Source: Proteus terrae subsp. cibarius
GTDB lineage: Bacteria > Pseudomonadota > Gammaproteobacteria > Enterobacterales > Enterobacteriaceae
Length of the DNA stretch: 64,000 nucleotides
Assembly: GCF_011045835.1 (NCBI RefSeq)
Contig: NZ_CP047349.1
Location: 2,480,001-2,544,000, forward strand
Reading direction: 5' to 3'
The position numbers and the translations under genes are program-made. Below, in pieces: positions 43,900-56,602 of the stretch (positions within the stretch are counted from its first letter, which is position 1; every line of letters starts with the position of its first letter). The notes beneath the pieces were generated by a model. It ran no database searches. It had not been told where the DNA came from and saw nothing but the letters and a program-made list of their open reading frames with translations.

Positions 43900-44163
43900 C
43901 TATTTAATTCCGTATTTTTTTTGAGTAACAAATTTAGGCTCTTTCCAATTAGGGCCTTTAATTGTTAGCCCCTTCTTATCTTTAGCTAATTTACCTTCCT
44001 GTAAAAGCTTACCCATTGTTTTTATAAGTATAGCTTTTTCAACAACTTCAAATTTATATCTCACATAACAACGATCAATGCTTGGGTACGTCGTTTTTGG
44101 GGCAAAATATAGAAGCACATCTTCTACGCTTTCGTTTTTATAAATACTTTCAACATCAATCAT
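43900..44163 (-). CDS. Candidate immunity protein for the adjacent bacteriocin
   Basis: 87 aa, a family I do not recognise; Lys-rich at the C-terminus (GPNWKEPKFVTQKKYG). Its ATG overlaps the bacteriocin stop by one base (TAATG), with AGGAG 8 bp upstream, the tight coupling expected for a nuclease bacteriocin and its immunity gene. Function is assigned by position only. Confidence 0.65.
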   Translation of the reverse strand: MIDVESIYKNESVEDVLLYFAPKTTYPSIDRCYVRYKFEVVEKAILIKTMGKLLQEGKLAKDKKGLTIKGPNWKEPKFVTQKKYGIK

Positions 44164-46037
44164 TATCTTATCTCCTGAGATTTATCATATGCTTCGATAG
44201 CCTCTGGTGTATATAAAGGCTGCGTCCGTTCATTGATATTATAATCTTCTAGTGTCGCTGTATGAGTATTATTCCAAACCTCATCAATATTATTCGGAAC
44301 CTCGCGATCTTTAATACCTAAATTACGATACCGTTCCAATTCTCTAATTTCATGTGTATAAAACCGCTTGTCAATATCAGTAGCTTTTATTTCACCACGC
44401 AATATTTTTTCCAGTCGATCAATCATTTCCTTGTTATCAGCTGACTCACCAAAACGCCCTGTGTGTAATTTTACTTTATCAACGCCATCACGATCGATTT
44501 TTACATCTTTCCAATCTAAATCTTTAATTGGTCCACCAGCTTTATCTTTATTAAATTCACGGCCACTAGATTTTCCTTTGGTATTTACCTCACCATAAGC
44601 ACCCAATTTTTTCTCTATATCCTCGACCTTATCCTCAGCAGCTTTTTTCTTTCCCTCTGCTTTTTTGCGTGATTCGAGAATGGGAGCCAGTTTTTTCTTT
44701 GCATCTTCGATTTGAGCGTGGGTTTTTAAAATTGAATCACATAAAGCACTTAAAAGAGCTGCAACAGCAAATAACTGAGGCCCCTTAATAGACTCTTTAG
44801 CTAATTTTTGAACAACTATGTTAGGATAGTCATTAGGCCGACTCAAAATTGCTTTTAATAACTCTTTGTCATTAAATTTAACTTCTTGTTTTGTTATTTT
44901 TAATTGCTTGCTATCCTGTTTATAAATAAGAGGATTTTTAACAGGATCGGCTAACGCCAAACCTTCTGGCGTAGCTTTGAGTTTATTAATAACAGCAACT
45001 TGAGCCTGATATTGTTTATCAATATCAGCTAATCTTTTTTTTGCTTCTTCAAGTTCTAATAATGCGGCTTCTAAAGGATATAGAGTCGACCATTCAGCCC
45101 ATTCTTTTTCCACTATTTGCTTTTCATTATTTATATCAATAACGTCAATAATAGAGACATAAAGAGCTTCATGCTTTCCGCCAAAATCAACAATCGCATG
45201 ATGAGTCTTTAATTTAGATGAAGGAATATAATATCTAGCATTAGGCTTAGAGTTGATGACTACCTGTTTATTTTTATCTACTTTGTTTTCAGAAACGCTA
45301 ATACGCACTGACTTTGCGCCTGCAATAATAGGAGCGGTATAAACATTAGGTGTGCTTGTTGCTGTTGCTTTTACGATTGGAATACTAATAGCCTGACCCG
45401 TTGATACAATGGTTCGTTGCTTTCCAGTATTCTTATCTAAAGCAGACATAACCTGAGTATGTATACTTAATGATGTTTTTTTACCAATGTTGCTAATTTG
45501 ATTAGTAACAATATCAGCAGGCATGGTTGTAACTTTACGAGATTTATTTCTATCAAAAATATCTCTGTCTAAAACACCGTATTTTCCCAGCAGAGCCATT
45601 TCAGCTTGAGTAGACATAATATTACTACTTGGCCACAATCCTTCGATTGCAATTCCGACACCTGTAACTCTAGCCAGTTTTGGAGCAATAGAAATTGCTT
45701 CTAATGCACTAGCTCTCAACGCTGTCAATGACTTAGAAAAGACACTCTTAATATTAGCGGAAACAAATGGAGTTGATGTAAAACTAAGAACACCTTGATA
45801 GGTAAGGAAACCTAAAGCAGGGAGACCAGCTGATGCCATTACTAGCTTTTCAGGATATTGGTTTAAATCAATATCAGAGGCATCTTGAATATCTCTTTCT
45901 CTTTCGTTTCTGTCTCGATCTTCATCGTCATTATCTGTGTAATTTGAATTATCATCTTCATCATAATCATAGTAATCATGACTACTGACGCCATCGGTTA
46001 TTTCAATCCGAATATCTCTATCTTCATTATCACTCAT
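44163..46037 (-). CDS. S-type pyocin/colicin-like bacteriocin
   Basis: 624 aa. Residues 1-55 are a disordered, Asp/Arg-rich translocation-type tail; about 60-130 are hydrophobic helices; about 165-325 resemble the S-type pyocin domain (IFDRNKSRKVTTMPADIV, then SIPIVKATATSTPNVYTAPI); about 330-480 are coiled coil rich in Lys/Glu/Ala. The C-terminal 135 residues carry the likely toxic domain, with KRFYTHEIRELERYRNLG and WNNTHTATLEDYNI as its conserved-looking core; I cannot name its family, though a His/Glu-containing nuclease-like active site is plausible. There is a LexA box upstream and a coupled immunity gene downstream, but no lysis gene. Confidence 0.82.
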   Translation of the reverse strand: MSDNEDRDIRIEITDGVSSHDYYDYDEDDNSNYTDNDDEDRDRNERERDIQDASDIDLNQYPEKLVMASAGLPALGFLTYQGVLSFTSTPFVSANIKSVFSKSLTALRASALEAISIAPKLARVTGVGIAIEGLWPSSNIMSTQAEMALLGKYGVLDRDIFDRNKSRKVTTMPADIVTNQISNIGKKTSLSIHTQVMSALDKNTGKQRTIVSTGQAISIPIVKATATSTPNVYTAPIIAGAKSVRISVSENKVDKNKQVVINSKPNARYYIPSSKLKTHHAIVDFGGKHEALYVSIIDVIDINNEKQIVEKEWAEWSTLYPLEAALLELEEAKKRLADIDKQYQAQVAVINKLKATPEGLALADPVKNPLIYKQDSKQLKITKQEVKFNDKELLKAILSRPNDYPNIVVQKLAKESIKGPQLFAVAALLSALCDSILKTHAQIEDAKKKLAPILESRKKAEGKKKAAEDKVEDIEKKLGAYGEVNTKGKSSGREFNKDKAGGPIKDLDWKDVKIDRDGVDKVKLHTGRFGESADNKEMIDRLEKILRGEIKATDIDKRFYTHEIRELERYRNLGIKDREVPNNIDEVWNNTHTATLEDYNINERTQPLYTPEAIEAYDKSQEIR

Positions 46038-46924: not shown

Positions 46925-47701
46925 TTAAAACTCTTTCAATCGTTTTAAAAACAATTTCGGTGAATATCCCATCTCTTTATTAAACATTGCACTAAAAGCG
47001 CTCGGATTTTCATAACCCAGCTCTAAAGCAACCTCAGTGACTGAATCTCCTTTCTTTAAAGCGGTTAACGCATACATTAAACACGCTTTTTGACGCCAAT
47101 CTCGAAAAGAAAGTCCTGTCTCCTTATGAAAAAGACGAGTAAATGTACGTAGACTCTTATTTAATTTTTCAGCCCACATTTCTGGTGTTGTGCGAATATT
47201 AGGTCGTGACATAAATTCAGTACACAATTCATCTAATAAAGCATGTTGCGGTAATGGCGTAAAATAAGGTAATGGCTTAGCTTGGGATAATTCATGACAA
47301 AGCAAAGTCAATAATGCGCTATCTCGCCCACCTAAATCATAAAGTAAAGGAAGTTCATTGGCAGAAAGTAATAACTGATGAAGCAGAGGGGAAACTTGTA
47401 AAACCTCACAATATTCTGAATGACGAGGAATTTTATTAGGCTCAATATAGAGACTATAAGTACTACTACCCAACATTAGCACTTGATGTACTTTTTCTGC
47501 AGGGATCCACACGCCACTGTAAGGCAATACAATCCATTGACCATCTTCTGTTTTAACTTTCATTACCCCACTAGGGGCATATAAAAATTGCGCACGCCGA
47601 TGATGATGAGCTTCAAGTAATGTGTCATAAGGATAATCAGAGCCTAATGCCAAAATATCACGAGGAAGATCATCCACACTGTTGATATCGATATTACGCA
47701 T
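46925..47701 (-). CDS. AraC-family transcriptional regulator
   Basis: 258 aa: a cupin-like N-terminal domain (LLEAHHHRRAQFLYAPSGVM, about 28-110) and a C-terminal double helix-turn-helix (about 160-255; TEVALELGYENPSAFSAMFNKEMGYSPKLFLKRL). It is divergent from the TSUP transporter at 47806 with 104 bp between, so it is likely to regulate it. The effector is unknown. Confidence 0.88.
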   Translation of the reverse strand: MRNIDINSVDDLPRDILALGSDYPYDTLLEAHHHRRAQFLYAPSGVMKVKTEDGQWIVLPYSGVWIPAEKVHQVLMLGSSTYSLYIEPNKIPRHSEYCEVLQVSPLLHQLLLSANELPLLYDLGGRDSALLTLLCHELSQAKPLPYFTPLPQHALLDELCTEFMSRPNIRTTPEMWAEKLNKSLRTFTRLFHKETGLSFRDWRQKACLMYALTALKKGDSVTEVALELGYENPSAFSAMFNKEMGYSPKLFLKRLKEF

Positions 47702-47805
47702 AATATTTAAATTGTCCTAAATTCGTATAAACTTGTCATTATCGCGTGGGTAAGCCATCACTTTATTCTATATTGTTAATCTCCTGACTCAACAGGAGAT
47801 TTGAA

Positions 47806-48609
47806 ATGACACTCTGGCTGATTTCTTTTGGTTTAATTTCAGGCATCACAACATGGTTATTTGGCTTTGGCGGAGGTTTTGTTACTGTTCCCTTACTCTA
47901 TACACTTATTCTGACACTTTGGGGAATAGACAGCTTACCTGCTGAACATGCTATGCAAATCGCAGTTGCTACCTCTGCATTAATTATGTTGTTTTCTGCG
48001 ACAGTCACCACCATTAAACACCATAAAGCCAAAAGGCTTGATTGGAATATCATGTCCATTCTGTTTATGGGTATCGCTTTTGGTGGGATCTTAGGTGCTC
48101 TTCTCGCATTAACAGTTGAAGGTACGTGGATCAAATGGATCTTTATTGGTTATCTCTTTGTCACTATTTTAGATTGTTATTTTCGCCCCGGTTTTATGGC
48201 TCCGACTCACAACTCAAAAACAGTAACTAAAGCAAAAGAAAGTATTAATGGTACAGTGATTGGTATTATTGCTGCTTTTTTAGGCGTTGGTGGAAGTGTC
48301 ATGACAGTACCTTTATTGCGCCGTAGAGGAACACCCATGGCACAATCAGCAGCAATGGCAAATGCATTAACCTTACCTTTAGCTCTCACGGCAACATTTA
48401 CTTATGTCGCCCTTTCTTTTACCTCACCTTTAAATAGTGAATCAGGTTTTATTGGTTATATTTGGTTAAAAGCTGCACTTATTCTGATTTGTAGTACTTG
48501 GGTTGGCTTGAAGATCTCTGAACGTTTTTTATCTCGCATTCCTGATAAATGGCACGCAAGAGTTTATCCTCTGTTATTGAGTCTTGTTTTAATTGTCATG
48601 CTGTTTTAA
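47806..48609 (+). CDS. TSUP-family (TauE/SafE) sulfite/anion exporter-like permease
   Basis: 267 aa with about eight helices and the two family motifs WLFGFGGGFVTVPLLYTLIL and IIAAFLGVGGSVMTVPLLRRRG. Family members export sulfite, sulfoacetate or other anions. The gene lies next to the thiosulfate reductase operon, whose product includes sulfite, which makes sulfite export plausible but unproven. A terminator follows at 48679. Confidence 0.88.
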   Translation: MTLWLISFGLISGITTWLFGFGGGFVTVPLLYTLILTLWGIDSLPAEHAMQIAVATSALIMLFSATVTTIKHHKAKRLDWNIMSILFMGIAFGGILGALLALTVEGTWIKWIFIGYLFVTILDCYFRPGFMAPTHNSKTVTKAKESINGTVIGIIAAFLGVGGSVMTVPLLRRRGTPMAQSAAMANALTLPLALTATFTYVALSFTSPLNSESGFIGYIWLKAALILICSTWVGLKISERFLSRIPDKWHARVYPLLLSLVLIVMLF

Positions 48610-48717: not shown

Positions 48718-49482
48718 ACATTTCACTTCATCTTTTTCCTACGCATCTTCACCTAGCATTAATGCTATTGAGACACATAAAACAAAAAATACCTCTTTTT
48801 GACAATCACGACACAGTTCCATAACGATTAATATCATTAATTAATATTTAAACATAATGAACAATAATTTATAAATTGTCTCATTTTTAGTATCAATCTG
48901 ATCACGTCTCGATGAATATTTATTGTATAAAAAAACACCTATTTATTTTTCTATTTTATTTGCATTTATCATCATAATAATAAGTTAGCTATTTTTCATA
49001 AGAAGATAATTTAAGAAGAAACTGGATTTAAATAACATCAAAAGTATTATTTATTATGATTTTCAAATAACAAATTAATTACAATATAATGTCATTTCGA
49101 TATATAAATAATTATATATCGATAGGCTTTTTTGTCAAACTTTAATTATTATTAATCATATATTTTAAATACACTTTAATAAAACAAATTAATGATATAA
49201 GCCTGTGAATTTAAAAGAACTATCCATTAATGTCATATCACTTAAAATCCCCTATTCCTTCCCCAAATTTTTATAATAGCATTCAATAGAAGAAAATAAT
49301 TATCATTTGATTTTGTCTATTTTAGTTAATTTATTTAGTGATATTTATTAACTTCTTATTCTCTATTATTTATTATTTACAACTAACTCATCACTTATGG
49401 ATTAATAAAATGGAGACGCCTTCAAATATTTATTTAACCGTCCGTATATAATATTTAGCTATAAGAAGAAACTGGAGGTTAT
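48718..49482. other. Long AT-rich upstream region of phsABC
   Basis: 765 bp with no convincing open frame. It contains the ModE-type operator at 49096-49123 and a 15-bp perfect direct repeat (TAAGAAGAAACTGGA at 49012-49026 and 49462-49476, the second copy being the phsA ribosome-binding-site region). I see no clear FNR box. Confidence 0.6.
49096..49123. promoter_or_regulatory. ModE-type molybdate-responsive operator upstream of phsA
   Basis: Arms TTCGATATATA and TATATATCGAT are separated by AATAAT. This fits the ModE pattern CGNTATATA-N6-TATATANCG at all defined positions, and the palindrome is perfect through CGATATATAA/TTATATATCG. It lies 360 bp upstream of the phsA start, so it would act on a distal promoter or from an upstream activating position. 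Confidence 0.75.
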
Positions 49483-51762
49483 ATGAGTATTAGTCGTCGT
49501 TCTTTCATTAAGGGGATGGGGATAGGATGTGTGGGTTGTACCGTGAGTAGTTTACCACCAGGTGCACTTGCATTTAATCCTGTAGATTCTCTTAAGGGTC
49601 AGTCAACATTAACACCTAGCCTGTGTGAAATGTGTTCTTATCGTTGTCCGATAGAAGCCCAGGTTGTTAACAACAAGACCGTCTTTATCCAAGGAAATAG
49701 AAATGCTGAACACCAAAGTAGCCGAGTTTGTGCAAGAGGCGGAAGTGGTGTTAGCCTAGTTAATGATCCAAACAGAATTGTCAAACCCATGAAACACAAA
49801 GGCCCACGAGGCGCTGGTGAGTGGGAAGTGATAAGCTGGGAACAAGCTTATAAAGAAATTGCAGAAAAGATGAATGCCATAAAACAAAATTATGGTGCAG
49901 AAAGTATCTCTTTTTCATCTAAATCAGGTTCACTCTCTTCTCATCTTTTCCATTTGGCGGCCGCTTTTGGCTCTCCAAACACCTTTACACACGCATCTAC
50001 TTGTCCAGCAGGAAAAGCTATCGCAGCATCCGTTATGATGGGCGGTGATCTTAAGATGGATTTAGCGAATTCTAAATATATTCTCTCTTTTGGTCATAAC
50101 CTTTATGAAGGTATTGAAGTCGCCGAAACTCATGAACTGATGACAGCACAAGAACGTGGCGCAAAACTCGTCAGTTTTGACCCTCGTTTGTCTGTTGTTT
50201 CAAGTAAAGCAGATGAGTGGTTCGCAATCCGCCCTGGTGGAGATTTACCTGTTCTGATGGCAATGTGCCATATCTTAATTAAAGAAGATCTCTACGATAA
50301 AGCGTTTATTGAGAAATTTACGATAGGTTTCCCACAATTAAAAGAGGTTCTACAAGACACAACCCCTGAATGGGCTCAAGCACATTCTGATGTTCCAGCT
50401 AAAGATATTGTTCGTATTGCTCGTGAGATTGCAGCAAAAGCACCTCACGCACTGATTATGCCAGGTCACCGCGCAACCTTTAATAAAGAAGAAATTAATA
50501 TGCGTAGAATGATCTTCACCTTCAATGCGTTACTTGGCAACATTGAACGTGAAGGCGGTATGTATCAGAAAAAAGCAGCGACAAAATACAACAAATTAGC
50601 AGGTATTGATGTTGCACCTGAATTAGCGAAACCAAGCGTTAAAGGTATGCCTGAAATTACCGCAAAACGTATTGATGCAACAGCTCCTCAATTTAAGTAC
50701 ATCAATAAAGGTGGTGGTATTGTTCAATCAATTATCGATTCAACATTAGAAGGCGTGCCGTATCAAACACGAGCATGGATTATGTCTCGTCATAACCCAT
50801 TCCAAACAGTGAGTTGTCGTCCTGATCTAGAGAAAGCCGCACAGAAATTAGACTTAATTGTTAGCTGTGATGTGTATTTAAGTGAAAGTGCCGCTTATGC
50901 CGATTATCTTTTACCTGAATGTACCTATTTAGAACGTGATGAAGAAGTTGCTGATGTTTCAGGTTTAAACCCAGCTTATGCATTACGCCAGCAAGTTGTC
51001 GAACCGATTGGTGATACTAAACCAAGTTGGTTAATTTGGATGGAATTAGGTAAAGCATTAGGATTAGAAGCCTGTTTCCCTTGGGAAAATATGGGAGTAA
51101 GACAGCTTTATCAAGTTAATGGTAGTGAAGAACTTTATAAAGAGATGCATAAAAAAGGCTATATCTCTTATGGTATTCCACTGTTATTACGCGAACCTTC
51201 TTATGTAAAAGCCTTTGTTGAGCAATATCCAGATGCAATTAAACATGTTGATAGCAACAATACAATGGAAAAAGCCCTTTCCTTTAAATCACCAAGTGGC
51301 TTAATTGAAATCTACTCTGAAGAATTAGAAAGCCGTTTAGAAAACTACGGCATTCCACGCTTCCACAACTTCCCATTAAAAGAAAAAGACGAGCTTTATT
51401 TTATCCAAGGTAAAGTCGCCGTTCATACTAATGGTGCAACACAATATGTACCGTTATTAGCTGAATTAATGTGGGAAAATCCTGTTTGGCTTCACCCTGA
51501 AACAGCTAAAAACCATGGAATTAAACATGGTGATGAAATCATTCTGGAAAACAATATAGGCAAAGAAAAAGCACATGCTTTGATAACAGAAGGCATTCGC
51601 CCTGACACTGTATTTGTTTATATGGGATCAGGTGCAAAAGCAGGTGCGAGAACAGCAGCGACTACAACAGGTGTTCACTGTGGCAACTTATTACCTCATG
51701 AAATTAGTCCTGTATCAGGTACTGATGTACATACATCAGGTGTCAGAATTAGTCGGGCTTAA
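49483..51762 (+). CDS. phsA: Thiosulfate reductase, molybdopterin catalytic subunit
   Basis: Reduces thiosulfate to sulfite and hydrogen sulfide on the periplasmic side under anaerobic conditions. 759 aa (Salmonella PhsA 758). Twin-arginine signal ISRRSFIKG; a [4Fe-4S] site CEMCSYRC...VCARGGSG; bis-MGD binding domains with the likely molybdenum ligand Cys in [13 protein letters not shown]-terminal pterin-binding domain (about 650-759). GGAGG precedes the ATG. First gene of phsABC. The sequence is close to Salmonella PhsA throughout, which argues against polysulfide- or tetrathionate-reductase assignments. Confidence 0.95.
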
Positions 51763-51776
51763 GGAAAAAAATAACA

Positions 51777-52355
51777 ATGAACAATAATGATAAACAATTT
51801 GTCATGTTACATGATGAGAAGCGTTGTATTGGCTGCCAAGCTTGTACTGTTGCGTGTAAAGTCATCAATGACATTCCTGAAGGATTTAGCCGGCTTCAAG
51901 TCCAAATTCAAGGCCCTCATGACGACGAAGCGGGTAATCCACATTACCAATTTTTCCGTGTTTCTTGCCAGCATTGTGAAGATGCACCTTGTGTTTCTGT
52001 TTGCCCTACTGGTGCCTCTTTTATTGATGAGAATGGTATCGTTCAGGTGAAAAAAGAGCTGTGTATCGGCTGCGATTACTGTGTTGGTGCTTGCCCTTAC
52101 CATGTTCGTTATATCAACCCAATGACGCATATCGCAGATAAATGTAACTTCTGTTCTGATACTCGATTAGCTAAAGGTGAATTACCTGCATGTGTATCGG
52201 TATGCCCAACAGATGCGCTTGCTTTTGGTCGCATTGACTCACCTGAAATTCAGGCTTGGATCAAACAAAAATCCGTTTATCAATACCAATTAGATAATGT
52301 CGGAAAAACAAGTTTATTCCGTCGTAAAGAAATCCATCAGGGAGATAAAGCATGA
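51777..52355 (+). CDS. phsB: Thiosulfate reductase, iron-sulfur electron-transfer subunit
   Basis: 192 aa with four [4Fe-4S] binding sites of the DMSO-reductase type: [46 protein letters not shown], and CNFCSDTR...CVSVCPTDA. It passes electrons from PhsC haem to PhsA. It starts 14 bp after phsA and overlaps phsC by 4 bp (ATGA). Confidence 0.95.
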
Positions 52356-53131
52356 CTAGTATCTGGGGAGCAGAACTCCATTATACGCCAGATTATTGGC
52401 CTGTATGGTTAATGGCAGCCGGTTTATTAATCGTTGCTATGATAGCAGTATTAGTTATTCATGGCTTACTACGCTATGCCCTTGCACCAAAACATTCTGG
52501 TCATTATGAAGAAGAACGGGTTTATTTATACTCTAAAGCAATTCGTTTTTGGCACTGGGGTAATGCTTTACTGTTTATCCTATTACTATTGAGTGGATTT
52601 TTAGGGCACTTCTCTATCGGTAATGTCACTTCAATGGTGCTATTACATAAGATCTGTGGCTTTGTACTGATTGCATTTTGGATTGGTTTTATCCTTATCA
52701 ATCTAACAACCAGTAATGGTGTACATTACAAAGTAAGATTTAGTGGGCTAATTGGTCGTTGCATCAAACAAGCTCGCTTTTATCTTTATGGCATAATGAA
52801 AGGCGAACCTCATCCTTTTGCAGCAACTGAAACTGACAAGTTTAACCCTCTTCAACAACTCGCTTACTTAGGAGTGATGTTTGGTTTAGTGCCGCTGTTA
52901 TTGGTTACTGGATTATTATGTTTATATCCTGAAGTACTTGGTGAAGGCTATTGGATGCTAAAAGCACACTTAGTATTAGGGATCGTGGCATTAATGTTTA
53001 TTTGTGCGCACTTCTACTTATGTACTCTGGGTGACACTTTTACTCAAACATTCCGCAGTATGATCGATGGTCATCACCGTCACCAAAAACATGATGATCA
53101 TAGTTCAGTAACAGAAAAAACAGAGCATTAA
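52352..53131 (+). CDS. phsC: Thiosulfate reductase, cytochrome b membrane anchor
   Basis: 259 aa, five or so membrane helices, oxidises menaquinol and anchors PhsAB. The second part belongs to the formate dehydrogenase gamma/cytochrome b561 type ([19 protein letters not shown] with a haem-ligand histidine, and a second His in the last helices [25 protein letters not shown]). His-rich C-terminal tail ([11 protein letters not shown]). A terminator follows. Confidence 0.93.
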
Positions 53132-53168
53132 TTTCTCAAGATCCCTTCTGTTACGATTCATTTCCTCA

Positions 53169-53195
53169 AATGCCCGCTTAAGCGGGCATTTTTTT
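53169..53195 (+). terminator. Terminator after phsABC
   Basis: AATGCCCGCTTAAGCGGGCATT at 53169-53190 is a perfect palindrome followed by a T run to 53195. Confidence 0.92.
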
Positions 53196-53284
53196 GATCT
53201 AAATTCAGAAACAATTTCATAATTTTATTATTAGCAAATACATCATTTTATTTACATGTTATTCGGTGTATAGTCGGCGCCCAC

Positions 53285-53312
53285 CTCGCTATATACAATC
53301 TTATACAATGAT
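53285..53312. promoter_or_regulatory. ModE-type operator A upstream of the TonB receptor
   Basis: Arms CTCGCTATATA (10 of 11 to ATCGNTATATA) and TATACAATGAT (9 of 11 to TATATANCGAT), separated by exactly 6 bp. It is just upstream of the candidate -35 box at 53318-53323. Confidence 0.6.
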
Positions 53313-53317
53313 GTACA

Positions 53318-53345
53318 TTACATTCGCAACGGGTATCGTTATATA
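53318..53345 (+). promoter_or_regulatory. Candidate sigma-70 promoter of the TonB receptor operon
   Basis: TTACAT (53318-53323), 16 bp, TATATA (53340-53345). The -10 lies inside ModE-type site B, so ModE-molybdate binding would block it. Confidence 0.45.
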
Positions 53346-53362
53346 AAACTTTTAATAGCGAT
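53335..53362. promoter_or_regulatory. ModE-type operator B upstream of the TonB receptor
   Basis: Left arm ATCGTTATATA is a perfect half-site; N6 is AAACTT; right arm TTAATAGCGAT matches 9 of 11. Same geometry as the E. coli modA operator (CGTTATATT-N6-TACATAACG). It is 40 bp upstream of the receptor start. Confidence 0.72.
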
Positions 53363-53401
53363 GGGTTTATATAACTAAAAAATACATTTAGGGAGTCTAT
53401 C

Positions 53402-55543
53402 GTGAAGAAATTTATTATTTCGACAATAGCTTGTGCTATAGCACAAACATTAGCTGTATCAGCAAGTGTAGCTGCTGAAAATGCTGAAAAAATCGTCGTT
53501 ACTGTACAGCCAGTGAATAATAGTGAAGCCGGTGCGGGATTTGTTACTCGTGAAGTTGATATGGGGCCATTAGGTGAGAAAAAATGGTTAGATACTCCTT
53601 ATACAACAAATACTTTTACTCAATCTATGATTGAAAATCAACAAGTTACCAATGTTGCTGATATCTTAAAATATAATGCCTCTTCTCAAATGCAAGCACG
53701 TGGCGGTATGGATGTTGGCCGTCCTCAAAACCGTGGAATGCAGGGCAATGTTGTTGCTAACTCTCGTTTAGATGGCGTGAATATTATTTCTACCACAGCC
53801 TTTCCTATCGAAATGCTTGATCGTGTAGATATTATTAATGGTCTAACTGGTTCACTTTATGGGCCAGCAAGCCCTAGTGGGCAATTTAATTTCACACAAA
53901 AACGTCCAACCTTAAAACGCTTAACGTCACTTAATGCAACTTATGTCAGTGATAACCAATTTAAAGGCCATCTTGATTTAGGGGGTTTTATTGATGATAA
54001 CAACACTTTTGGTTATCGCATTAATCTAATGCATGATGAAGGTAAAGGTTACGTCGCAGGTAGCAAAACACGTCGCCAGCTAATCAGTACCGCATTTGAT
54101 TGGAATATCTCGTCTGATACTGTGTTAGAAGTGAATTTTAGTGATTATTGGTTTAAAAAAATAGGTTACCCTGGTGCATTTTCTTATGGACCCAAAGTTA
54201 CCGCATTACCTGATGCGCCAGATCCAACTAAAGCCGGCTATGGTCAAGCTTTTGCTGGCGTTGATCTTCATACCAGAACAGTAAGTAGCCGACTAAAACA
54301 TGATTTTAACGAAGATTGGCAAATCAGTGCAGCAATTGGCTATCAAACGGCTGATCGCGGATTCCGTTCTGTTTCTAACCAATTAAGTCATGATGGTAAG
54401 CAATTTACACCAACGTTATCAGTACCGACAACTTATGGTCGTTTTACTATTTTAAGCCATTCTGTCAATGTTAATGGTCATGTGATGACTGGCGCACTAT
54501 CTCATGATTTAATTCTCGCCACTAGCGGTTATCGTTGGGATATTTATGGCGCAAATGGTAATGATCAAAAATTCACATTACCAACTCAAGATATTAATAA
54601 TCCACATCGTTATGATGATCCTTCTCATGAAGGCTTCTACACAGGCGCAGCTCGCACTAAAAATAGTCGCTCACAAGTTCAATCTTTTACTTTAGGTGAT
54701 ACCGTTACCTTTAATCCTCAATGGTCAGTAATGGGATCACTAAGCCAAAACTGGATCAAAGAAACGTCTTATCGTGCTGGTGGTGGAAATCACACCGAAA
54801 ATGGATTAAGCCCTACTGTCGCATTAATGTTTAAACCTATTCCTGAAGTGATGACTTATGTTTCTTATGCAGATTCATTAGAAGAAGGGGATTCAGCACC
54901 AAACACTGCCAACAACAAAAATGAAGTACTAAAACCTTATCGTAGCGAACAATGGGAAATGGGGGTTAAATCGCAAATTGGCGATCTTAATTTAAATGCA
55001 GCTATTTTCCAATTAGAGCGTCCTTTTGCCTATGTGGGTAACGACAATATCTTTAAAGAACAAGGTAAACAACGTAACCGTGGACTAGAGCTTATCGCTA
55101 ACGGAAAAGTCACTGATGAGCTTTTCGTTTTTAGTAGCATGACTTGGTTAGATCCAACTTTAACCAACACAGGAAATGCTCAAACACAAGATAAAGACGT
55201 TGTTGGCGTACCAAAATATCAAGCAAATTTATTAGCTGAATACCATTACCCTACTTTGCCTAATGTTATCTATAGCGCCAATGTTCACTACACAGGTAAG
55301 CGTGCAGCAAATACCACCAATACGATGTGGGCAAAAGCCTATACCACTCTCGATCTGGGTGCGCGTTATCAAACACAATATTGGGATAAGAAAACCACTT
55401 TCCGACTCAATTTAGATAACGTGACTAATGAGCATTACTGGGCATCTATTTTCTCTGGTAACCAAAATGGCGCAATTGGGGGAGCAAATGCTTTCTTAGG
55501 CACACCTCGCCAAGTTTCCGCTTCTGTAAGCATTGAACTCTAA
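53402..55543 (+). CDS. TonB-dependent outer-membrane receptor (siderophore/metal-chelate type)
   Basis: 713 aa. Signal peptide (MKKFIISTIACAIAQTLAVS, cleavage near ASVAA), TonB box EKIVVTV near the mature N-terminus, plug domain about 50-170 (SQMQARGGMDVGRPQNRGMQ; LDRVDIINGLTGSLYGPASPSG), then a 22-strand barrel ending VSASVSIEL. By sequence it is of the siderophore-receptor (FhuA/FoxA) class. The start is GTG at 53402 behind GGGAG. It is co-transcribed with the binding protein 12 bp downstream. Control by ModE-type boxes instead of an obvious Fur box suggests a molybdenum- or tungsten-related ligand; this is inference. Confidence 0.88.
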   Translation: MKKFIISTIACAIAQTLAVSASVAAENAEKIVVTVQPVNNSEAGAGFVTREVDMGPLGEKKWLDTPYTTNTFTQSMIENQQVTNVADILKYNASSQMQARGGMDVGRPQNRGMQGNVVANSRLDGVNIISTTAFPIEMLDRVDIINGLTGSLYGPASPSGQFNFTQKRPTLKRLTSLNATYVSDNQFKGHLDLGGFIDDNNTFGYRINLMHDEGKGYVAGSKTRRQLISTAFDWNISSDTVLEVNFSDYWFKKIGYPGAFSYGPKVTALPDAPDPTKAGYGQAFAGVDLHTRTVSSRLKHDFNEDWQISAAIGYQTADRGFRSVSNQLSHDGKQFTPTLSVPTTYGRFTILSHSVNVNGHVMTGALSHDLILATSGYRWDIYGANGNDQKFTLPTQDINNPHRYDDPSHEGFYTGAARTKNSRSQVQSFTLGDTVTFNPQWSVMGSLSQNWIKETSYRAGGGNHTENGLSPTVALMFKPIPEVMTYVSYADSLEEGDSAPNTANNKNEVLKPYRSEQWEMGVKSQIGDLNLNAAIFQLERPFAYVGNDNIFKEQGKQRNRGLELIANGKVTDELFVFSSMTWLDPTLTNTGNAQTQDKDVVGVPKYQANLLAEYHYPTLPNVIYSANVHYTGKRAANTTNTMWAKAYTTLDLGARYQTQYWDKKTTFRLNLDNVTNEHYWASIFSGNQNGAIGGANAFLGTPRQVSASVSIEL

Positions 55544-55555
55544 GAGGAAAACGAA

Positions 55556-56602
55556 ATGTATAAAGTTTTTTTCAAAATCCTGTGCATTGCGTTACTGGGA
55601 GCTTCGGCTCTCAGTATCTCCTTTAATGTACAGGCACAACGAGTTGTTCAATATTATCAAAATCAAACCATTACTATTCCTGACTCACCCGAAAGAGTCG
55701 CCACGAGTTGGAATGCTCAAAATGCGATACTTGCTATGCTTGGTGCTGGAGATAAAATTGTTTCCACAACCGATTTAGTCAAAACTATTCCCTTTTTTAC
55801 CGAGATTGTTCCCGCTATAAAAACAGCTTCAATTTCTAGTAAAGGGAATAATGACACACTGAATATCGAAACATTAATTGTTAGCCAACCTCAAATCTTT
55901 TTTGCAACAGGAAAGCTATCTGATGCACAAATGACAGCGCTAAAAAATGCAGGGATCAGTGTTGCATTATTAAAATCAGGTTCAATGGATGCATTGTTAG
56001 AAAGAACGTTGATCACAGGTGAGATTTTAGGTTCAAGTAGTCACCAATTAGCAAACGATTATTTAGCTTACTTTCAGCGTAATGAAGCTCTTGTAAAAAG
56101 TGCGGTAAGCGAGATAAGCACTAATAAACCAATGAAGGTCTATCATGCTTTTGGTTCGCCATTAAGAACATCTGGCGCACCTTCGTTAAATCATGATTGG
56201 ATAACACTTGCAGGCGGTATTAACGTTGCAGAACATTGGTTTGATAATGTGTCAAGCCGAGCTGGTGATGTTTCCTTAGAACAAGTTATTCATGTCAATC
56301 CTGATGTCATTGTCACTATGTATGCAAGAGATACTGAAATCATTAAGAATGCACCTGAATGGCAATCCATCTCTGCCGTACGTGAAGGCCGAGTTTACAC
56401 AAATCCTAAAGGCCTATTTTGGTGGTGCCGTGAAACCACAGAGGAAGCCTTACAATTTTTATGGTTAGCGACTGTTTTATATCCAGAACAAACAAAGCAT
56501 ATTAATATCTCTAAAGAGACTCAACAATTCTATAAAACTTTTTTTAATATCACCCTCACCGATCAGCAGCTCAAACACATTCTTAAACCTCTCAAAGGCT
56601 AA
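55556..56602 (+). CDS. Periplasmic metal-chelate-binding protein (BtuF/FecB/MolA-like)
   Basis: 348 aa, signal peptide ending FNVQA, and a cluster-A-II helical-backbone binding fold: ITIPDSPERVATSWNAQNAILAMLGAGDKIVSTT near the N-terminus, EQVIHVNPDVIVTMYARD in the second lobe, and GLFWWCRETTEEALQFLWLATVLYPE at the C-terminus. Such proteins bind ferric siderophores, cobalamin, haem, or (MolA) molybdate/tungstate. Read 12 bp after the receptor gene with a GAGG ribosome binding site. No permease or ATPase gene follows, so it must use an ABC transporter encoded elsewhere. Confidence 0.85.
   Translation: MYKVFFKILCIALLGASALSISFNVQAQRVVQYYQNQTITIPDSPERVATSWNAQNAILAMLGAGDKIVSTTDLVKTIPFFTEIVPAIKTASISSKGNNDTLNIETLIVSQPQIFFATGKLSDAQMTALKNAGISVALLKSGSMDALLERTLITGEILGSSSHQLANDYLAYFQRNEALVKSAVSEISTNKPMKVYHAFGSPLRTSGAPSLNHDWITLAGGINVAEHWFDNVSSRAGDVSLEQVIHVNPDVIVTMYARDTEIIKNAPEWQSISAVREGRVYTNPKGLFWWCRETTEEALQFLWLATVLYPEQTKHINISKETQQFYKTFFNITLTDQQLKHILKPLKG

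Follow-up and report, generated by a model that had tools for sequence, protein, structure and literature searches.

A ModE-boxed TonB receptor operon of Proteus with a probable role in molybdenum uptake

Background

In the accepted view, molybdate enters the cell through porins and active uptake begins at ModABC, which is repressed by ModE (PMC8264917). Here we describe an operon at positions 53285 to 56602 of a 64,000-nucleotide stretch of the Proteus terrae subsp. cibarius genome (hereafter, the window). It encodes a TonB-dependent receptor and a periplasmic binding protein behind two ModE-type boxes, and probably belongs to a molybdenum uptake system that begins at the outer membrane. ModABC is similar in its regulation, and a second modABC operon of this genome is ModE-boxed as well; its binding protein is of the ModA type, however, its transporter is of another type, and it has no outer-membrane part.

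The MolBC-A system of Haemophilus influenzae (HI1470-1472) is a molybdate and tungstate importer; its binding protein MolA binds both, and the system is described as low-affinity (PMC4031551). The Proteus operon differs from it by the presence of a TonB receptor and by a binding protein that lies outside the MolA clade. The Yiu system of Yersinia (YiuABC, YiuR) serves Fur-regulated iron uptake (PMC5683015), whereas here ModE boxes are present and Fur-like sites are not enriched. FemA and BauA, the solved receptors closest in sequence, take up ferric siderophores, and in this case too the difference lies in the ModE boxes.

FrpB4 provides an example of a TonB receptor under a nickel regulator, NikR. 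ZnuD, likewise a TonB receptor under a regulator of a metal other than iron (PMC11026637), is comparable in this respect, but metal, regulator and periplasmic partner are all different. An outer-membrane route for molybdate has been reported in Pseudomonas aeruginosa (cited in PMC11734730); it uses ModA secreted by type VI secretion together with IcmP, whereas the present operon encodes a TonB receptor and a MolA-like protein. A literature search, with subscription papers and preprints outside its scope, gave no TonB-dependent molybdate system among the matches listed. The system proposed below would thus be TonB/ABC metal uptake of a familiar type, in which the regulator and the metal are new.

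Results and discussion

ModE boxes in the genome and at the receptor operon

The window corresponds to positions 2480001 to 2544000 of contig C1 (NZ_CP047349.1) of a 4.12-Mb genome, which encodes ModE (TIGR00637, 123.7 bits for a cut-off of 98.5). The E. coli ModE consensus, printed as ATCGNTATATA-N6-TATATANCGAT (PMC545781), was scored by counting mismatches over its 20 specified bases. Two matches lie upstream of the receptor gene on the forward strand, where an earlier reading of the sequence alone had placed two ModE palindromes: box 1, CTCGCTATATA-N6-TATACAATGAT, at 53285-53312 (3 mismatches) and box 2, ATCGTTATATA-N6-TTAATAGCGAT, at 53335-53362 (2 mismatches). At up to 3 mismatches, the window contains three sites for 0.01 expected from shuffled sequences, and the whole genome nine, compared to none for the reversed pattern.

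Four of these nine sites belong to TonB/FecCD clusters: two at the receptor operon and one each at two loci described below, clusters B and C. Three more stand at phsABC, at a DmsA-type reductase (named by eye) and at the second modA operon, and one at a hydN-like/hyp operon (hydN and hyp also named by eye). The ninth (C1:326484-326511, 2 mismatches) is unexplained: its flanks are an outward-reading gene and, by eye, an integrase-like fragment, and no molybdenum gene was recognised near it. The classic modA promoter scores 4 mismatches in Proteus, as does that of E. coli, and the start of cluster C carries an additional 4-mismatch site. A looser pattern, used first, yielded three genomic sites and one match for its reversed control; the site at 1006788 falls inside predicted coding sequence and has no molybdenum genes close by.

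The receptor gene (53402-55543, forward strand, GTG start) encodes 713 residues with a Plug domain (49.3 bits, cut-off 23.9) and a TonB barrel (133.6, cut-off 27), and passes the TIGR01783 model (292.8, cut-off 223.5). It is followed at 55556-56602, on the same strand, by a 348-residue binding protein with a Peripla_BP_2 domain, so that the gene order read from the sequence alone was correct. An EKIVVT-like motif near the receptor N terminus, noticed by eye only, is a candidate TonB box.

The same reading had placed one box over the -10 element. This did not hold: a promoter scan found no consensus promoter overlapping either box. A candidate -10, TATAGT, lies instead upstream of both boxes, at 53269-53274 on the forward strand. 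The scan did not pick it up, but it belongs to a stretch kept across eight aligned Proteus promoters and is itself present in all seven of the other loci; a similar TATAGT immediately precedes the box in L043 and L160. In the seven other Proteus loci (L034-L040), box 1 is found at the same place with 3 to 4 mismatches and box 2 with 2 to 4, ending 39 bases 5' of the start codon in five of the seven; the arms of both boxes are retained, while the sequence between varies. If TATAGT is the -10, box 1 would cover the transcription start and box 2 the leader. Repression would suit boxes at these positions as well as boxes on the -10.

Conservation of the boxes and comparison with Fur

Homologues of the binding protein provided 68 loci, and 56 receptors could be tested (open reading frame above 500 residues on the forward strand, score against the query above 150 bits, 120 or more upstream bases). 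A script set the start codons, not all of which may be correct; that of L080 looks mistaken. Within 250 bases of the receptor start, a ModE box was found at 35 of the 56 loci with up to 3 mismatches, 41 with up to 4 and 45 with up to 5, compared to 0.0, 0.1 and 0.53 in shuffles; the box of L160 is a perfect match. For Enterobacterales, assigned on the basis of record names, the proportion at up to 5 mismatches was 44 of 46, the exceptions L080 and L081 having no good box, against 5 of 537 other genes of the same loci. Moreover, at least four of these five are the receptor's own intergenic box, which also lies in front of the divergent gene; with the reversed pattern, one of the 537 scores this well. 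The boxes are therefore conserved upstream of orthologues, and chance palindromes were rejected on the three controls: shuffles, reversed pattern and other genes. From these sites, the receptor operon is almost certainly controlled by ModE. Outside Enterobacterales a box was in range for only one receptor of ten, that of Nitrobacter; in Shewanella mangrovi, a 4-mismatch site lies further upstream and a 2-mismatch site 5' of a second binding protein.

Fur-like sites, in contrast, were not clearly enriched upstream of the 56 receptors: at up to 5 mismatches 2 were found for 1.1 expected, and at up to 6, 8 for 5.3 expected from shuffles. L065 has a site with 3 mismatches and L078 one with 5; in Providencia burhodogranariea a 3-mismatch site accompanies the ModE box. 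For the Proteus receptor the best site has 7 mismatches out of 19. Among the 13 TonB receptors recognised in this genome by their Plug domain, five have Fur-like sites (1 to 4 mismatches) and ModE scores of 6 to 9, while ModE boxes with 2 mismatches mark two, the receptor studied here and that of cluster C, whose Fur scores are 7. No receptor combines the two kinds of site, and six, including the cluster B receptor, have neither in the scanned stretch. Fur control was rejected given the lack of clear enrichment in orthologues. In P. mirabilis, the TonB receptors reported as induced by low iron are ireA, PMI0363, PMI2596 and PMI0233 (PMC11026637).

A permease and ATPase at a second ModE-boxed locus

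In Proteus, no permease gene is adjacent to the receptor/binding-protein pair. The sequence-only reading had proposed a search for a ModE-boxed permease and ATPase elsewhere in the genome, and this search was successful, with clusters B and C as its outcome. Cluster B (C1:1437673) comprises a ModE box, FecCD-type permease and ATPase genes (C1:1437880-1439750) and then another TonB receptor, with no binding protein. Its permease is present in 19 of 20 genomes of the genus. Fifteen of these 19 matches had a locus and were compared; the box stands at a nearly constant distance in all 15, with 3 to 6 mismatches, and with 5 or fewer in 12.

Receptor, binding protein, permease and ATPase form one run in 11 of 48 loci, whose hosts include Citrobacter, Klebsiella, Leclercia, Pluralibacter, Pseudocitrobacter, Yokenella and Cedecea. 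The permeases of these runs are 63 to 81% identical to that of Proteus cluster B; that of L055 is split over two reading frames. Because all four genes make up a single operon in these relatives, Proteus appears to have split it. Very likely, Proteus runs one system from two ModE loci, and the products of the pair and of cluster B would work together. A complete TonB/ABC set, with cognate permease and ATPase, is thus present in Proteus through cluster B, in the 11 loci, and in E. coli SE15. An orphan pair devoid of permease was rejected, since a ModE-boxed permease/ATPase locus exists and the same genes adjoin the pair in relatives. A 5-mismatch Fur-like site is found at Proteus cluster B and at most of its 15 loci, and cluster B may therefore be under double control by ModE and Fur.

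Relationship of the binding protein to MolA

The binding protein resembles MolA over its full length in sequence and in fold, although YiuA-type folds are nearly as close. In the tree it is placed outside the clean MolA clade (support 100/100) and joined to MolA at 92/80, not to FepB, FecB, FhuD or BtuF. It can be regarded, with moderate support, as the sister of MolA, and may bind molybdate or tungstate. A phylogenetic placement had been proposed for both proteins: that of the binding protein could be made, while for the receptor the comparison covered solved structures, the nearest being FemA (7.3e-63) and BauA (2.3e-61).

A search of 121 genomes of one family, that of G168, presumably Pasteurellaceae, gave MolA itself in 11. 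In 8 of the 11 loci a ModE-like box with 2 to 5 mismatches lies just upstream. In a plain count over the 186 kb of these loci, 10 of the 11 sites with up to 5 mismatches stand at molybdate-transport or cluster C genes.

Molybdenum gene neighbourhoods and cluster C

In 6 of 48 loci the system adjoins gpmA, with the gal genes and modF beyond; aroG is on the other side in five of the six, and the contig of one, L059, continues to modE and modA.

Cluster C (C1:3449553) consists of a TonB receptor beside a binding protein, a permease, an ATPase, a methyltransferase-like gene (by eye) and ModD (TIGR01334, 394 bits for a cut-off of 178.85). In the Proteus locus the methyltransferase-like gene and ModD lie between the transporter genes and the receptor (L024:7584-9328), and in L156 the same order stands behind a single box. 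In G099, of the same GTDB family, the genes of cluster C are contiguous behind a 2-mismatch box, in the order binding protein, permease, ATPase, methyltransferase-like gene, ModD, receptor. Two other genomes have ModD after modABC-type genes with a box. One block of G380 unites molABC, modA2B2C2-modD, the cluster C transporter and a receptor of the cluster C type (599 residues aligned, 34% identity), with three ModE-like boxes in its gaps. This block ties a TonB receptor of such kind by position to a proven molybdate family; the receptor belongs to a different branch from the one studied here.

Two minor features of cluster C were also seen. In nine loci (L196, L198-L203, L205, L206) the binding protein and TonB receptor genes have between them a gene of 158 to 171 residues, by eye membrane-like, the same gene being found at L186:1871-2386 and L187:3624-4118; the two copies tested had no Pfam match. 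In L163 and L187 (G168), only two detached remnants of the receptor are left, while the divergent transporter genes and boxes persist.

The second modABC-type operon (L025:2153-4404), recognised by its ModA (TIGR01256, 90 bits, cut-off 62.5), carries a ModE box with 3 mismatches; comparable genes of another genome precede modD.

Distribution in Escherichia coli

RefSeq complete genomes of E. coli, an uneven sample of the species, were searched with a query that ran from the receptor through the binding protein into the permease. At least 80% of this query was found in one place in 896 of 5,426 genomes. A 322-base promoter piece was present in 962 genomes, with at least 99% identity in 942 of 963 records. 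Strains SE15, a commensal, and SCU-115 have the four-gene operon and a box with 2 mismatches; in SE15 the best Fur-like site has 7. CFT073 and SE15 share an identical receptor accession, and EcN_Sk, a derivative of E. coli Nissle 1917, is among the strains listed with the operon. Compared with Proteus, the SE15 proteins are 51% (receptor), 44% (binding protein), 72% (permease) and 64% (ATPase) identical. Among the matches listed, the E. coli annotation reads TonB-dependent (siderophore) receptor and ABC transporter. In some genomes (for example H56-H58) nothing but the beginning of the receptor gene remains, with a transposase beside it, and part of E. coli therefore seems to have lost the operon.

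Proposed mechanism and alternatives

A role of the operon in the supply of molybdenum, or tungsten, is highly probable. The complete model, a ModE-repressed, TonB-dependent molybdenum uptake system encoded at two loci, we regard as probable. When molybdenum is sufficient, molybdate-bound ModE would occupy both boxes and shut the operon, as suggested by the sites and the known action of ModE. When molybdenum is low, ModE would be released and the receptor made. The receptor, powered by TonB, would carry a molybdenum compound across the outer membrane to the MolA-like protein, which would hand it to the FecCD-type permease and its ATPase, provided by the second ModE-boxed locus in Proteus and by the same operon in some other Enterobacterales. 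Within this model the cargo is rather likely to be a chelate, whether the cell's own, foreign or host-derived; the receptor is akin to siderophore receptors, which makes a chelate likelier than bare molybdate. The free oxyanion is a less likely cargo, and anything else improbable. The outer-membrane uptake suggested from the sequence alone is thus supported by the conserved boxes, the boxed permease/ATPase and the grouping with MolA, the ligand being a prediction. A reservation about this interpretation is that the binding protein is not inside the MolA clade, and is no MolA orthologue.

That bare molybdate (or tungstate) is taken up at trace levels, without chelator, through a high-affinity gate beside the porins seems fairly unlikely. 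Molybdate and tungstate are what MolA binds, the sister of our binding protein (PMC4031551), and other receptors of this class act on unchelated metals or under their control, as illustrated by ionic copper uptake through OprC (PMC8610252) and by the zinc-regulated ZnuD of P. mirabilis (PMC11026637). Against this, the receptor is related to receptors whose ligands are large chelates, and cluster C, a related cluster, contains methyltransferase-like and ModD genes that point to an organic partner. Another explanation retains the chelate and changes the metal: the operon would import a ferric siderophore, with ModE control arising from the ability of catecholate siderophores to bind molybdate as well, or from an adjustment of iron supply to the use of molybdoenzymes. 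The resemblance of the receptor to FemA and BauA and its TIGR01783 match would then be taken at face value, as would the closeness of YiuA-type folds and the Fur-like sites in L065, L078 and the Proteus permease locus. We consider this improbable: Fur-like sites are hardly commoner than in shuffles upstream of the receptors, the genome's receptors with Fur boxes have no ModE box, and the tree places the binding protein with MolA, apart from FepB, FecB and FhuD. Still less probable is a cargo of tungsten, or of a small molecule that molybdoenzymes require, such as a pterin, in place of the metal. ModE is generally regarded as responsive to tungstate as well, and the Proteus operon stands behind that of a molybdoenzyme, both of which would fit such a cargo. 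The relatives sit instead with molABC, modA2B2C2-modD and the mod locus, neighbourhoods in which pterin-related genes were not searched for.

Returning to molybdenum uptake, we propose tentatively that enterics, including about one-sixth of the E. coli genomes searched, possess a dedicated, ModE-switched molybdophore route from the outer membrane to the cytoplasm, and that in its cluster C version cytoplasmic ModD and the methyltransferase could process or recycle the organic ligand. If the model is correct, bacteria compete for molybdenum at their surface as they do for iron, probably as a chelate, and this would apply to Proteus, Klebsiella, Citrobacter, Serratia, Pectobacterium and about one-sixth of the complete E. 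coli genomes searched. A molybdophore would be predicted in the habitats of these bacteria, a role would be suggested for the orphan ModD, and a set of proteins labelled siderophore receptors would be misnamed. The presence of the operon in easily handled E. coli strains makes this interpretation directly testable there.

The preceding phsABC operon and its surroundings

As had been read from the sequence, the receptor operon lies directly behind a molybdoenzyme operon with its own ModE box. This box (49096-49123, forward strand) has 1 mismatch, and 1 to 2 in L034-L039. It is followed on the same strand by phsA (49483-51762; molybdoenzyme subunit of thiosulfate reductase, NF012032, 1286.5 bits for a cut-off of 694), a phsB-like iron-sulfur subunit (51777-52355; Fer4 domains, with no NCBIfam model over its cut-off among the best 25 of 50 matches) and phsC (52352-53131; cytochrome b subunit, NF011582, 407.4 bits, cut-off 204). 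A terminator-like hairpin at 53168-53191, forward strand (10-pair stem with 6 G-C pairs, T tail; one found for a shuffle mean of 0.1), separates phsC from the receptor operon. Read-through from phsC as the sole route of expression was rejected because of this terminator; in addition, the pair occurs elsewhere without an adjacent complete phs operon, none having been found beside it in the non-Proteus loci.

In a P. mirabilis modA deletion, phsA, phsB, phsC and hydN are among the up-regulated genes named; the receptor is not mentioned in the text of that report on these genes (PMC10174112). Their counterparts in the present genome, the phsABC and hydN-like operons, carry ModE boxes.

On the 5' side of the phs operon, positions 46925-48609 of the window hold divergent genes for an AraC-type regulator and a sulfite exporter of the TauE type. 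Beyond them, on the minus strand, a 624-residue open reading frame (44163-46037) resembles, by eye only, a colicin or S-type pyocin-like bacteriocin.

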